Assembly (NCBI GenBank): GCA_947384955.1
Contig: CANDJC010000040.1
Span: 1-36,947, forward strand
DNA: 36,947 nucleotides
Source of the DNA: an uncultured Eubacterium sp.
GTDB lineage: Bacteria; Bacillota; Clostridia; Lachnospirales; Lachnospiraceae
Direction of reading: 5' to 3'
The notes beneath the pieces were generated by a model. That model had not been told where the DNA came from. It saw only the letters and a program-made list of their open reading frames with translations, and searched no databases. The position numbers and the translations under genes were made by a program. Shown in pieces: positions 1 to 36,947 of the stretch (position 1 is the first letter of the stretch; each line of letters opens with the position of its first letter).

Positions 1-122
1 CCAGGGCGAATAGGTGCCGCGTCCCGTCCGGGGCCACAGCGTAAATGCAGAATGCTTAGGGATTCTTAACATTCTGGAGCCGCCGCAGGAAGACCGTGCA
101 AATCCCCTCTCCCGGCGTCCGC
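1..122 (-). repeat. Palindromic repeat copy A (partial, cut by window start)
   Basis: This is the right part of the ~250-bp dispersed repeat also found at 10995-11248, 12510-12760 and 36801-36947, in the same orientation as the third copy. It contains part of the core (GGTGCCGC near 14-21), an inner arm (about 49-76) and one outer arm (82-116), and ends at GGCGTCCGC. The outer arm matches the right outer arm of the copy at 11205-11239 with one substitution (position 97), so it belongs to the same subtype. Its complementary partner lies outside the window. No coding capacity is seen. Confidence 0.9.
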
Positions 123-158
123 ACAGCCAGCAGTCTCCCCTTTTTTATAAATTTTCTA

Positions 159-3581: not shown

Positions 3582-3600
3582 AAAAGGAGAGATTTTGATA

Positions 3601-3641
3601 AAAAGAAGGCGCCCTGCAGATTTGCTGCGGGGTGCCTTTTG
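3601..3641 (+). terminator. Intrinsic terminator of the GntR/ABC operon (direct-repeat copy 1)
   Basis: A strong GC-rich hairpin (AAGGCGCCC-TGCAG / GCTGC-GGGGTGCCTTTT) is preceded by A's and followed by T's, starting about 20 nt after the stop. The identical 41-nt sequence occurs again at 4107-4147. Confidence 0.9.
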
Positions 3642-4053: not shown

Positions 4054-4106
4054 ATCGGGCAGAATGTATGTCTGACGGCTTTTTAATTCTTGTTGAAGGC
4101 GATAAA

Positions 4107-4147
4107 AAAAGAAGGCGCCCTGCAGATTTGCTGCGGGGTGCCTTTTG
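4107..4147. terminator. Bidirectional terminator (direct-repeat copy 2)
   Basis: This is identical over 41 nt to 3601-3641. It lies between two convergent genes: T's follow the hairpin on the plus strand, and a T-rich run follows it on the minus strand next to the permease stop at 4148. It should therefore terminate both. Confidence 0.88.
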
Positions 4148-10509: not shown

Positions 10510-10914
10510 TCATACCTGTGTGGGATTGGCAGCCGCCAGTATTTTTTCAAATGCCAGGCCTGCAAACATCCAAAGCGGCGCGTAATCCAGCCGTATCAGG
10601 CCGTTGATATTTGCTTTTGCTTTGCTGTAATCCCAGGGGCACATCTGGTGCTTTTTTAAAAAACTGCCGCTTACATATTCGCCGGTAAAGATTCCGACGC
10701 TGTAAATGGCGCCGCGAAGAAGCAGCGGGCAGCTTGTCAGATGACGGGATACGGGGGAAATCACTGCCGCCATGCCGTAAATTGGGAACATCCATAAGGA
10801 GGTCTGGCCCATCAGGCGTTTGTCACGTTTGCGGATGCAGCCTGCGGAAGTAAATAAAATTTCCATGCACCAGCCGGTCAGGCCGCAGATAAAAAAGTTT
10901 TGTAATCGTTTCAT
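10510..10914 (-). CDS. Small membrane protein, CmpB/PF06541-like (putative ABC-transporter type IV)
   Basis: This 134-residue membrane protein has about three or four hydrophobic segments. FFICGLTGWCMEILFTS at the N-terminus and WMFPIYGMAA with WDYS (in CPWDYSKAKANINGLIRLDYAPLW) are motifs I associate with the PF06541 membrane family (CmpB-like, putative ABC-transporter type IV). The frame stays open upstream to 11103, but that extension runs through the palindromic repeat and reads as non-coding. ATG 10914 (MKRLQNFF) is chosen although no clear ribosome site precedes it, so its own upstream region may have been altered by the repeat that begins 80 nt away. Its role is unknown. Confidence 0.72.
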   Translation of the reverse strand: MKRLQNFFICGLTGWCMEILFTSAGCIRKRDKRLMGQTSLWMFPIYGMAAVISPVSRHLTSCPLLLRGAIYSVGIFTGEYVSGSFLKKHQMCPWDYSKAKANINGLIRLDYAPLWMFAGLAFEKILAAANPTQV

Positions 10915-10994
10915 GGGGATAGGGTGTGCAGAAATTGCGGGAATTATGCGGGAGGAATGGAAAGAGTTTTTTATAGGGGAGGGGGTGTGGCTTC

Positions 10995-11248
10995 GCGGAC
11001 GCCGGGAGAGGGGATTTGCGCGGTCTTCCTGCGGCTGCTCCAGAATGTTAAGAATCCCTAAGTATTCTGCATTTACGCTGTGGCCCCGGACGGGACGCGG
11101 CACCTATTCGCCCTGGCCTGCAGCCAGCAGCTACCGGTGCCGCTTCGGCTTCGCCGCCTGGTTTTTGTGGCAGAATGCTAAGGGATTCTAAACATTCTTC
11201 CGATGCCGCAGGAAGACCGCGCAAATCCCCTCTCCCGGCTGGGTTTCG
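10995..11248 (+). repeat. Palindromic repeat copy B (complete)
   Basis: This is a complete ~254-bp copy running from GCGGACGCC to CTGGGTTTC. The outer arms 11001-11035 and 11205-11239 are perfectly complementary over 35 nt. The inner arms 11042-11070 and 11170-11198 match at 26 of 29, and each is itself a hairpin (AGAATGTTA...TAAGTATTCT type). The core holds GCGGCACC (11097-11104) / GGTGCCGC (11136-11143), enclosing CTGGC-CTGCA-GCCAG. There is no open frame of its own. G-runs (about 10977-10989) flank the left end. It lies between the 5' ends of the genes at 10914 (minus) and 11260 (plus). Confidence 0.95.
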
Positions 11249-11259
11249 AAGAGTGTTAC

Positions 11260-12234
11260 ATGGGAATACAATACTGCGAAGACTTCTCTGGAAATGGCGC
11301 AGCGGCCGGTGCGGTTGTAGCGCTGGCGGCGAGCGGCTCCCTTCCTATTGTAACAGGAGGGCTAAGCATTGCGGGTTCGGCTCTGTCTTTTGGGGCTGCC
11401 ATGACACCGCTTGCCGCAGCTGCAGCACCCGTTCTGTTCTTTACAGCGCTGTCAGCCAGCATGAAGGCAGATGAAAATCTGGAAAAAGCACAGACGATGT
11501 ATGCGCAGGCAGAAGCTGCATCCGAAAAAATGAAAGTGTCTGAGACATTATGTGCCGGAATATCGGAAAGGTCAGAAATGTTTTATGATGTTTTGCATGA
11601 GCTGGACGGAATGTTTTTAGAATGTGTGATGCTTCTGCATGGAGTTGTGTGTAAAAAAGAGGGACGCATATTTAAGAAAAAACTGAAAGCAGAACATTTC
11701 ACAGACGAGGAAATCAGACTGATGGCAGTTACCAGGGCGCTTGCCGGAGCAGTAAAGGCTGTCATTGATACGCCGATTTTATCATCAGACGGCACGCTCT
11801 CATTCGAATCAAAAGATGTCTATGAGCAGACCGTCTGCAGCCTTCCCGACCTGAGCAGAGCAGCAGAAGAAGTAAAGGCCGCGGACTATCAGGCCAGACC
11901 GGCGGCGCTGGATGTAAAACAAAAACCATCCATTACAGGGAAAAATGCGAAAGCAGATGTACGCACAGCATATAAACCGTCTCTGCCAGTAAAGGCTGTT
12001 CTGTGGTTTTGTACCGTGATGCTTGTCCTGTGCGGCGTTTCGCTTTTGTATGTATCCGAAATCATTGCGGGCAGTTTATGGATAATCGGGGGATTGATGA
12101 TGTGTCCCAAAATCAGCAGCTCAATGAAATTTCTGCCAAGGCTGGGCAGAATGTTTCTGCTTGTGCTGCCAGGCTGTTTTTTATGTGATGAAATGAAAAA
12201 TCAGAATATGAGGGATAACGATGTTTCACTGTGA
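11260..12234 (+). CDS. Membrane protein of unknown function, 5' end next to the repeat (possibly truncated)
   Basis: About 324 residues follow ATG 11260; the frame is open from ATG 11203, which lies inside the repeat. Residues ~12-65 are Gly/Ala-rich and hydrophobic (a glycine-zipper-like stretch). A helical, charged middle part follows (about 65-240), and two C-terminal transmembrane segments lie around 245-285. I do not recognise the family. There is no ribosome site before either start, and the repeat ends only 12 nt before ATG 11260, so the true N-terminus may have been lost to the repeat. The 3' end is intact and overlaps the next start by 14 nt, showing an ancestral two-gene operon. Confidence 0.6.
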   Translation: MGIQYCEDFSGNGAAAGAVVALAASGSLPIVTGGLSIAGSALSFGAAMTPLAAAAAPVLFFTALSASMKADENLEKAQTMYAQAEAASEKMKVSETLCAGISERSEMFYDVLHELDGMFLECVMLLHGVVCKKEGRIFKKKLKAEHFTDEEIRLMAVTRALAGAVKAVIDTPILSSDGTLSFESKDVYEQTVCSLPDLSRAAEEVKAADYQARPAALDVKQKPSITGKNAKADVRTAYKPSLPVKAVLWFCTVMLVLCGVSLLYVSEIIAGSLWIIGGLMMCPKISSSMKFLPRLGRMFLLVLPGCFLCDEMKNQNMRDNDVSL

Positions 12235-12424
12235 GAAATGCGGTCTGTGCTGCATGCATATCGGGAAAGTTTCTCTGTATAAGGGATTAGACCGGGGAGA
12301 CGGGGTGTGCAGATTTCCGGCCCTGCATCCACTTTTTCATTCTCATCTTTTTGTACGGAATAACAGAGTCTTCCATATTTATTGTGTATCTTTACAATTT
12401 ATTGTGTATCTTTGCAATACATAA
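12221..12424 (+). pseudogene. Truncated YkgJ-type Cys-cluster protein
   Basis: The first ~32 residues match the start of YkgJ-family zinc/iron-chelating proteins: C4, C7, C10 and C11 in CEKCGLCC, then LDRGDGVCRF. Normal members continue for another 60 to 200 residues with more cysteines. Here the frame passes into unrelated sequence (PALHPLFHSHLF...) and stops at residue 67. The start is intact: GAGGGATAACG precedes the ATG, and it overlaps the previous gene by 14 nt. The break lies near 12320, about 190 nt before the repeat copy at 12510, so a deletion or rearrangement removed the 3' part. It is probably non-functional. Confidence 0.7.
12377..12416 (+). repeat. 20-bp tandem duplication
   Basis: Two adjacent 20-bp units (ATTTATTGTGTATCTTT plus ACA or GCA) differ at one base. 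They lie in the non-homologous tail of the truncated YkgJ-type gene and look like a slippage duplication in decaying DNA. Confidence 0.85.
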
Positions 12425-12509
12425 ACAATCTGCCAGGCAGCCCGACATCTGCTTACAACAATAAAAATTTAAAACAGTAACCGCAGTTACTCACTGTAAC
12501 GCCAGCCAG

Positions 12510-12760
12510 AAACCAGCCGGGTGACGGGAAGATGCCCTGGCTTCCTGTGACATCGGAGGAATGTTTAGAATCCCTTAGTATTCTGCTAAAAAACCAGGCG
12601 GCGAAGCCGAAGCGGCACCTTTAGCTGCTGGCTGCAGGCCAGGGCGAACTAGGTGCCGCGACCGTCCGGTGCCACAGCGTAAATGCAGAATACTTAGGGA
12701 TTCTTAACATTCCGGAGCCGTCACAGGAAGCCAGGGCATCTTCCCGTCACCCGGCGTCCG
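12510..12760 (-). repeat. Palindromic repeat copy C (complete, opposite orientation)
   Basis: This is a complete ~251-bp copy, inverted relative to the one at 10995-11248. Outer arms 12516-12551 and 12720-12755 are perfectly complementary over 36 nt, but their sequence differs from the other full copy at many positions, including one length change. The inner-arm hairpins and the GCGGCACC (12612-12619) / GGTGCCGC (12652-12659) core stem are retained. Ends are GAAACCAGCCGG on the left and CCGGCGTCCG on the right. Confidence 0.95.
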
Positions 12761-12767
12761 AGAGGCC

Positions 12768-12838
12768 CAAAACCCCCTCCCCCCAGCATCCGCACATCCA
12801 TCCCGTCCCACTCCCGGTCAGAATCATCCCCCTCCCAA
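12768..12838 (-). other. C-rich tract (G-runs on the minus strand)
   Basis: Many C runs occur here, including CCCCCTCCCCCC. Read on the minus strand they are closely spaced G-runs of three or more that could form a G-quadruplex. It starts 7 nt from the end of repeat copy C. Shorter G-runs flank the corresponding ends of the other copies. Confidence 0.5.
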
Positions 12839-12857
12839 AAATTAATTCAGGATACCC

Positions 12858-12886
12858 TTGTGATTCCATCAGGAAATTTGTATAAT
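12858..12886 (+). promoter_or_regulatory. Promoter of murE
   Basis: TTGTGA at 12858-12863, a 17-nt spacer and a perfect TATAAT at 12881-12886, giving a leader of about 130 nt. Confidence 0.7.
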
Positions 12887-12929
12887 AGAGTACAAATTGC
12901 AAAAATTCTGCATGACAGCCCCCTTAGAT

Positions 12930-36778: not shown

Positions 36779-36800
36779 GATGGGGGGTGATTATGGCGGC

Positions 36801-36947
36801 GCGGACGCCGGGTGACGGGAAGATGCACCGGCTTCCTGTGACGGCTCCGGAATGTTAAGAATCCCTAAGCATTCTGCATTTACGCTGTGGCTGCGGACGG
36901 GACGCGGCACCTATTCGCCCTGGCTTTCTGCCAGCAGCTACCGGTGC
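36801..36947 (+). repeat. Palindromic repeat copy D (partial, cut by window end)
   Basis: This copy has the same orientation as that at 10995. It starts GCGGACGCC, has a left outer arm at 36807-36842 of the same subtype as copy C (two differences), then the inner-arm hairpin and the core up to GGTGC, where the window ends. G-runs (36782-36787) flank its left end. Confidence 0.92.

Follow-up and report, generated by a model that had tools for sequence, protein, structure and literature searches.

A family of intergenic repeat units with convergent, usually unlike palindromic ends in genomes of uncultured Eubacterium

The locus and its repeat copies

The window analysed here is a whole contig (C40, 36,947 nucleotides) of a 5.06 Mb genome in 271 contigs from an uncultured Eubacterium sp. 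(G000, hereafter the own genome). A unit of two inverted ends around an interior (Table 1) sits between a CmpB-like gene on the minus strand, with a probable start at 10914, and murE (13022). The first-pass annotation of this DNA had reported four copies of a repeat, two of them complete, and a profile search confirmed all four, the incomplete ones being cut by the start and the end of the contig. The pairing of the outer arms that it described within each complete copy is likewise as stated, both in an inverted-repeat search and in the sequence. The observation is real and was understated, in that the copy on which it centred is one end of a two-ended unit and the second complete copy is the other. 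What the earlier reader missed is that two convergent ends, unlike in most cases, flank a variable interior and together make up the unit. The open reading frame that starts inside end 1 has no Pfam or NCBIfam match, and its first ATG lying wholly in the interior gives 277 aa. Elsewhere in the window, two identical 42-nt terminator-like hairpins (3600-3641 and 4106-4147) lie ~500 bp apart.

Table 1. Features of the repeat unit and of the cut copies, in coordinates of the window.
Feature	Position	Strand	Basis
Copy cut by contig start, outer half present	1..142	-	profile match
End 1, arm type 1, with G-rich outer edge, arms of the palindrome, core and inner edge	10975..11270	+	profile match, positions 4-301 of 308
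End 1, outer left arm, pairs with 11205-11239	11001..11035	+	inverted repeat; compensatory pairs of the family
End 1, inner left arm; partner in the long palindrome is 11173-11197	11043..11067	+	half-site pattern; compensatory pairs
End 1, core with nearly invariant GCGGCACC/GGTGCCGC stem	11068..11172	+	sequence; alignment of copies
End 1, inner right arm	11173..11197	-	half-site pattern
End 1, outer right arm	11205..11239	+	inverted repeat in sequence
343-aa open reading frame, start inside end 1	11203..12234	+	ORF list, family searches
Interior separating both ends, 1215 bp	11271..12485	.	profile match edges
End 2, arm type 2, in inverse orientation to end 1	12486..12781	-	profile match, positions 4-300 of 308
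End 2, arm, pairs with 12720-12755	12516..12551	+	inverted repeat in sequence
End 2, arm, pairs with 12516-12551	12720..12755	+	inverted repeat in sequence
Copy cut by contig end, outer half present	36781..36947	+	profile match

A pattern for the half-site, taken from the inner arm, occurs 524 times in the own genome (267 forward, 257 reverse), and the reversed control pattern does not occur at all. Each complete end has two half-sites, which puts the number of ends in this genome at ~260 (524/2). Many of the contigs examined stop inside a copy and therefore the repeat is probably one cause of the fragmented assembly.

Anatomy of one end and covariation

Each end is a quasi-palindrome of ~300 bp. 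On the outside it has a G-rich edge and TGGC.C.CGGAC. Further inward follow an outer arm (~35 bp), an internal loop that is asymmetric, an inner arm (28 bp), a core (~100 bp), the arms complementary to the first two and, lastly, an inner edge around TTTACATGAAA. The consensus folds into a single long hairpin. Covariation along the long palindrome was scored in 100 of the 105 complete own-genome copies. Two-sided compensation is found in 40 of 64 pairs (653 cells) and 97.6% of cells are paired, values that were reached by none of 500 shuffles. If the partner is slid by 1-3 columns in the same alignment, pairing falls to 34-48%. Moreover, each of the 16 pairs ranked highest by mutual information belongs to the palindrome. 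As had been claimed for the window, sequence changes and pairing is maintained, both in the own genome and in three congeners.

The first-pass annotation had also described the inner arms as hairpins in their own right. They can fold alone, but as separate local hairpins they show two-sided change in none of 14 pairs, which rules them out as conserved structure; the left inner arm set against the right inner arm shows such change in 12 of 26 pairs. The structure supported by covariation is one long quasi-palindrome. Two A.A mismatches within it are kept in 99/100 and 100/100 own copies. The core contains invariant stretches, and the GCGGCACC/GGTGCCGC sequences, which were said to be kept there, are nearly invariant in 100 aligned copies. 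By eye, the central core hairpin of one congener (G005) is swapped for a different hairpin at the same place.

Within a copy, the left and right arms differ by 1.1% (105 complete own-genome copies). Aligning the left arm to the reverse complement of the right gave perfect arms in 115 of the 171 copies measured, out of 174 complete ones. Perfect arms were likewise found in 23 of 34 measured copies of G003 and in 13 of 19 of G002, where 19 of the 21 complete copies were measurable. Between copies, arms are diverse, with distinct arm sequences in 103 of the 105 own-genome copies. They fall into two types that differ by one base in length. Across 100 of the 105 own copies, left arms are 15.7% different within a type and 31.7% between types, the corresponding values being 5.3% and 7.7% for the inner arm and 11.8% and 12.1% for the core. 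Compared within type, the arms are only moderately more variable than the core (15.7% vs 11.8%). The rarity of half-compensated arms (1.1%), given a divergence of 16-32%, is easier to account for if one arm is copied from the other than if selection acts slowly, pair by pair.

Paired, usually unlike ends

Among the recognised copies of the first 80 loci and the window, close neighbours are convergent in 24/24 pairs. With partial copies admitted, 63 of 70 neighbours less than 3 kb apart are convergent (37/38 in the own genome, 12/18 in G005 and 14/14 in the named loci). Convergent neighbours were also counted in G003 (14/15) and G002 (5/5), an analysis that the group of named loci overlaps, since most of these belong to the genomes also sampled as G002, G003 and G005. 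A convergent partner or fragment lies within 3 kb of 138 of the 174 complete copies; a further 11 have too little flank, and 25 have none in at least 1.4 kb. Sixteen of these 25 were traced further. Two proved to be each other's partner across an interior of 2406 bp (L203), one is accompanied by no more than a weak fragment of 47 bp and 13 are still without a partner within 3 kb. Single ends exist. A partner or fragment is present for 32/34 complete copies in G003 and for 10/21 in G002.

The two arm subtypes that the first-pass annotation distinguished are real, but they are not separate kinds of element, being mostly the two ends of one unit. Type 1 is combined with type 2 in 42 of 44 own-genome pairs, in both orders (26 and 16), and the two types are about equally common in that genome (63 and 64 arms). 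Arm identity within own-genome pairs is 0.654, vs 0.736 with shuffled partners, and none of 300 shuffles was as low. G003 and G002 have different arm sequences, and there too the arms within pairs are less alike than shuffled ones (22/500 and 16/500 as low, respectively); by eye, 10/14 pairs of G003 are unlike and 4/14 are of like ends, whilst the G002 sample is of 5 pairs only. In G005 the shuffle test for unlike arms was not significant (145/300 as low), and a post hoc count by eye found that all 9 of 9 pairs with one recognisable arm variant carry another variant opposite.

The cores of 24 own-genome units are more alike within units (0.927) than after shuffling (0.883, with 0/300 as high), and the same is true of the inner arms of a unit's two ends. 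In this genome, therefore, the two ends of a unit exchange their cores and not their arms. Shared cores were not significant among 14 units of G005 (55/300 as high), where the inner right arms of pairs are less alike than shuffled ones (13/300).

Interiors, edges and an empty site

Across 71 units from several genomes the interior is between 35 and 2406 bp long and differs from one unit to the next, with a mean G+C of 0.39 vs 0.47 for the window. Interiors are not homologous between units beyond short stretches, which is evidence against recent copying in the manner of a transposon. Seven have a common diffuse AT-rich stretch, in both orientations. Cross-validated flank profiles matched 9 (sense) and 10 (antisense) among 88 inner flanks, and 1 and 1 among 108 outer flanks; with so few matches, a common interior can be rejected, as nothing outside the ends is lastingly conserved. 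In most of the 71 interiors there is no reading frame of 70 aa. A few frames resemble, by eye, acetyltransferases (L069, L080), an HTH antitoxin (L027) and a toxin with an IS fragment (L203). Among the frames of at least 70 aa in the 71 interiors no transposase that could mark an autonomous parent was recognised, save the IS-like fragment in L203, again by eye. Some interiors contain tandem inner-end fragments (profile ~216-303) at a spacing near 105 bp, for example L003 (1911-2686) and L031 (1789-2276).

The gap between the CmpB-like gene and murE is 2107 bp in the window, vs ~140-150 bp in G006 and ~170 bp in G001, and the window's locus is thus an empty site in these two congeners. Both carry the family elsewhere, with 11 (G006) and 2 (G001) covariance-model matches. 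In other congeners the two genes are not adjacent, or have other genes between them. Upstream of murE in G010 lies a shrunken pair, the ends of which are like short arms without a core (L143).

Terminal inverted repeats, by which MITEs and cut-and-paste elements are known, are present in the form of the convergent ends. No target-site duplication was detected, as the outer flanks of 44 units have no excess of shared k-mers over shuffled partners, and the edges are fuzzy G-runs. In the outer flanks of L046, L056 and L066, tandem repeats of the outer edge lie beyond the element. In some own-genome copies (for example L010, L019 and L063) a motif like AACAGTTCGGAC is found just beyond the G-run, which might mark a preferred site or be the actual outer edge. 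The outer edge in G005 (for example at L177, L117 and L186) extends to a common sequence near CTAGAGCGAACAAATTTG, on both sides in some units, possibly a terminal repeat with CTAG at its edge.

Distribution of the family

Of the 13 genomes of the genus, 8 contain the half-site pattern; 28 others lack it. A covariance model, the check that the first-pass annotation had proposed, was made from the inner arms and core and recovered the family in 11 of the 13 genus genomes at E 1e-5 or better, with at least 150 matches in each of three and 2 in each of two. Under stricter filters, applied to a sample of 150 Lachnospiraceae genomes, it matched the own genome and none of the 149 others, 1 of which belongs to the genus. 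The carriers among the matches listed come from gut metagenomes, their assemblies bearing the labels uncultured Eubacterium sp. and Eubacteriaceae bacterium B36. Four of 54 named loci, from other phyla, match by chance and lack the element, and a search of viral contigs returned one 16-base match, the element being absent there. Rfam has no match at gathering score in the whole window, and 10900-12900 gives six matches far below gathering scores, which bears out the earlier remark that no matching family was known. Among the open-access papers listed, none deals with this repeat family.

Arm mismatches: DNA or RNA

Strong covariation and a core with invariant stretches are what a structured RNA family might be expected to have, and a structured RNA was one of two readings offered by the first-pass annotation, the other being a fold-back element. 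On that explanation each end is transcribed into a long hairpin with a conserved core, and the arms covary since the RNA must pair. The in-place replacement of the central core hairpin in G005, seen by eye, suits it as well. However, selection on an RNA of the core strand should give a clear excess of G.U, and the arms have none. In a copy-by-copy alignment of 171 copies, where each arm is scored from its first six matched bases onward and any earlier mismatch goes uncounted, there are 34 A.C/C.A vs 17 G.T/T.G mismatches on the core strand. Counted by column, the figures in 100 own copies are 20 A.C-type vs 7 G.T-type. G003 and G002 have 5 vs 3. Counting 36 outer pairs by column in 136 copies does give 97 G.T/T.G cells vs 46 A.C/C.A cells, although 67 of the 97 come from one internal-loop position (66/233) and 12 from one further pair (33/266). 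At positions 31-59 of these 136 copies the two types are about level (19 G.T-type vs 25 A.C-type). The bias, if anything, fits the opposite strand. Therefore, a DNA-level process is favoured or, weakly, an RNA of the opposite strand.

Rfam, moreover, holds no match, and the ~260 ends per genome stand in convergent unlike pairs; to our knowledge RNA families are not arranged as hundreds of such pairs per genome. Taken together, these data do not support structured RNA as the first choice and make it an unlikely explanation. The fold-back reading, which the first-pass annotation had also put forward, fits the pairs, the dispersal and the empty site.

A proposed non-autonomous element and its relatives

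We tentatively favour a non-autonomous, REPIN- or foldback-like element, dispersed in intergenic DNA, that has two usually unlike DNA palindromes as its ends. We infer that the unit is or was mobile, from the one locus with an empty site and from the differences in copy number between species. The ends would act as DNA, in the form of long hairpins when single-stranded, or of cruciforms. A putative enzyme supplied in trans would recognise them and would need one of each kind, and the core together with the conserved mismatches would be what it reads. Recognition of each end is suggested because copying alone does not explain the kept A.A mismatches or the unlike ends. The arms may stay symmetric through fold-back (template-switch) synthesis, one arm being copied from the other, and arms that are unlike would prevent full-length pairing between the ends of one unit and leave each free to fold alone. 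A broader proposal, which we put forward with considerable doubt, is that of a new class of bacterial mobile elements whose ends, each a long hairpin, are recognised by DNA shape. In such a class the arms would be free to change if they stay palindromic, the unit would work only with unlike arms, and arm identity would turn over between species while the rule is kept.

Y1/RAYT proteins are not supported as the mobiliser, as Y1 counts do not follow the element across genomes. G002 has 159 half-sites and no Y1 (PF01797), and G004 has 54 Y1 matches, yet no half-site and 2 covariance-model matches. One of 25 Y1 loci examined (L162, G003:C131) has a cut pair of ends directly before a Y1 frame. That frame (134 aa) is IS200/IS605-like and is followed by a frame of 406 aa, an arrangement known from IS605-type elements.

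REPINs are doublets of REP units and are thought to be moved by RAYT (PMC3116915), the REP units being ~20-40 bp in length (PMC3733652). The dispersed unit of two inverted palindromic repeats plus a spacer is common to REPINs and the element. So are palindromic ends that are conserved and inverted, a spacer that varies, a large number of copies, the lack of a transposase of its own and compensatory changes across a hairpin (PMC3116915). The element differs in that its ends are ~300 bp, against tens of bp for REPs, and in that its compensation lies inside each end, the two ends usually being of unlike types. A further difference is that Y1 genes, the RAYT association of REPINs, do not track it. 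What is new here is a variant among the non-autonomous palindromic repeats of bacteria, one that works most like REPINs and fails two of their defining features.

The eukaryotic Foldback (FB/TU) transposons have long inverted ends with internal structure, tandem sub-repeats and a variable or missing middle. The element resembles them in its long, internally structured inverted ends, its tandem sub-repeats and its variable middle, but it is bacterial, each of its ends is itself a palindrome and the two ends differ in their arms.

Other explanations

A structural or regulatory repeat of the REP/BIME kind would consist of intergenic paired palindromes bound by host factors, with effects on termination, mRNA stability or supercoiling, and would have spread by an unrelated or lost mechanism. 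E. coli BIMEs are inverted pairs of palindrome types in intergenic DNA, and the units recall them in this arrangement, although the units are far longer and have covarying arms and a conserved core. Of the 41 nearest outer frames that run towards the element, 34 end 13-131 bp from it, as might be expected of such a role. However, there is no single gene orientation. The nearest outer frames of 106 copies (mechanical frames of at least 90 aa) point away in 62 cases and towards the element in 41, with none in 3, which does not support a general role as leader RNA or terminator. We consider this explanation improbable.

The repeats may instead be dead and now without function. Their symmetric arms and shared cores would then be no more than by-products of two processes, quasi-palindrome correction and gene conversion between inverted copies. 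Correction by template switching makes imperfect inverted repeats more perfect (PMC7202029), and correction alone can yield near-perfect arms. The homogenised cores within a unit and the interiors, with nothing lasting in common, agree with this. However, the A.A mismatches, present in 99 and 100 of 100 copies, are what correction should have erased, and unlike ends persist in three genomes with different arms by the shuffle test, and in a fourth by eye only. Template-switch correction is a mutational process and not an element, and alone it does not explain the copy number, the kept mismatches or the unlike ends. Dead repeats are, on this evidence, a distinctly unlikely account.

An integron-like cassette system, in which the ends would be attC-like, structure-recognised recombination sites and the interiors cassettes, is highly improbable: the palindromes are variable in sequence and conserved in structure, as in attC sites, where the substrate is a folded single strand, and a few interiors have small acetyltransferase-like and toxin-antitoxin-like genes by eye, but the units are dispersed, the sites are inverted, most of the 71 interiors lack a 70-aa frame, and an integron integrase is not supported as mobiliser, with none over the TIGR02249 curated cut-off in the 13 genus genomes.

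If the non-autonomous element with unlike palindromic ends is the right reading, covariation, the usual hallmark of functional RNA, can arise at large scale in a DNA element, and this would be a warning for covariance-based RNA discovery. The ~260 palindromes in one genome would, moreover, form a natural set for measuring gene conversion as well as fold-back correction. That the two ends tend to differ would then set a testable limit on models of structured ends, and could lead to the enzyme.
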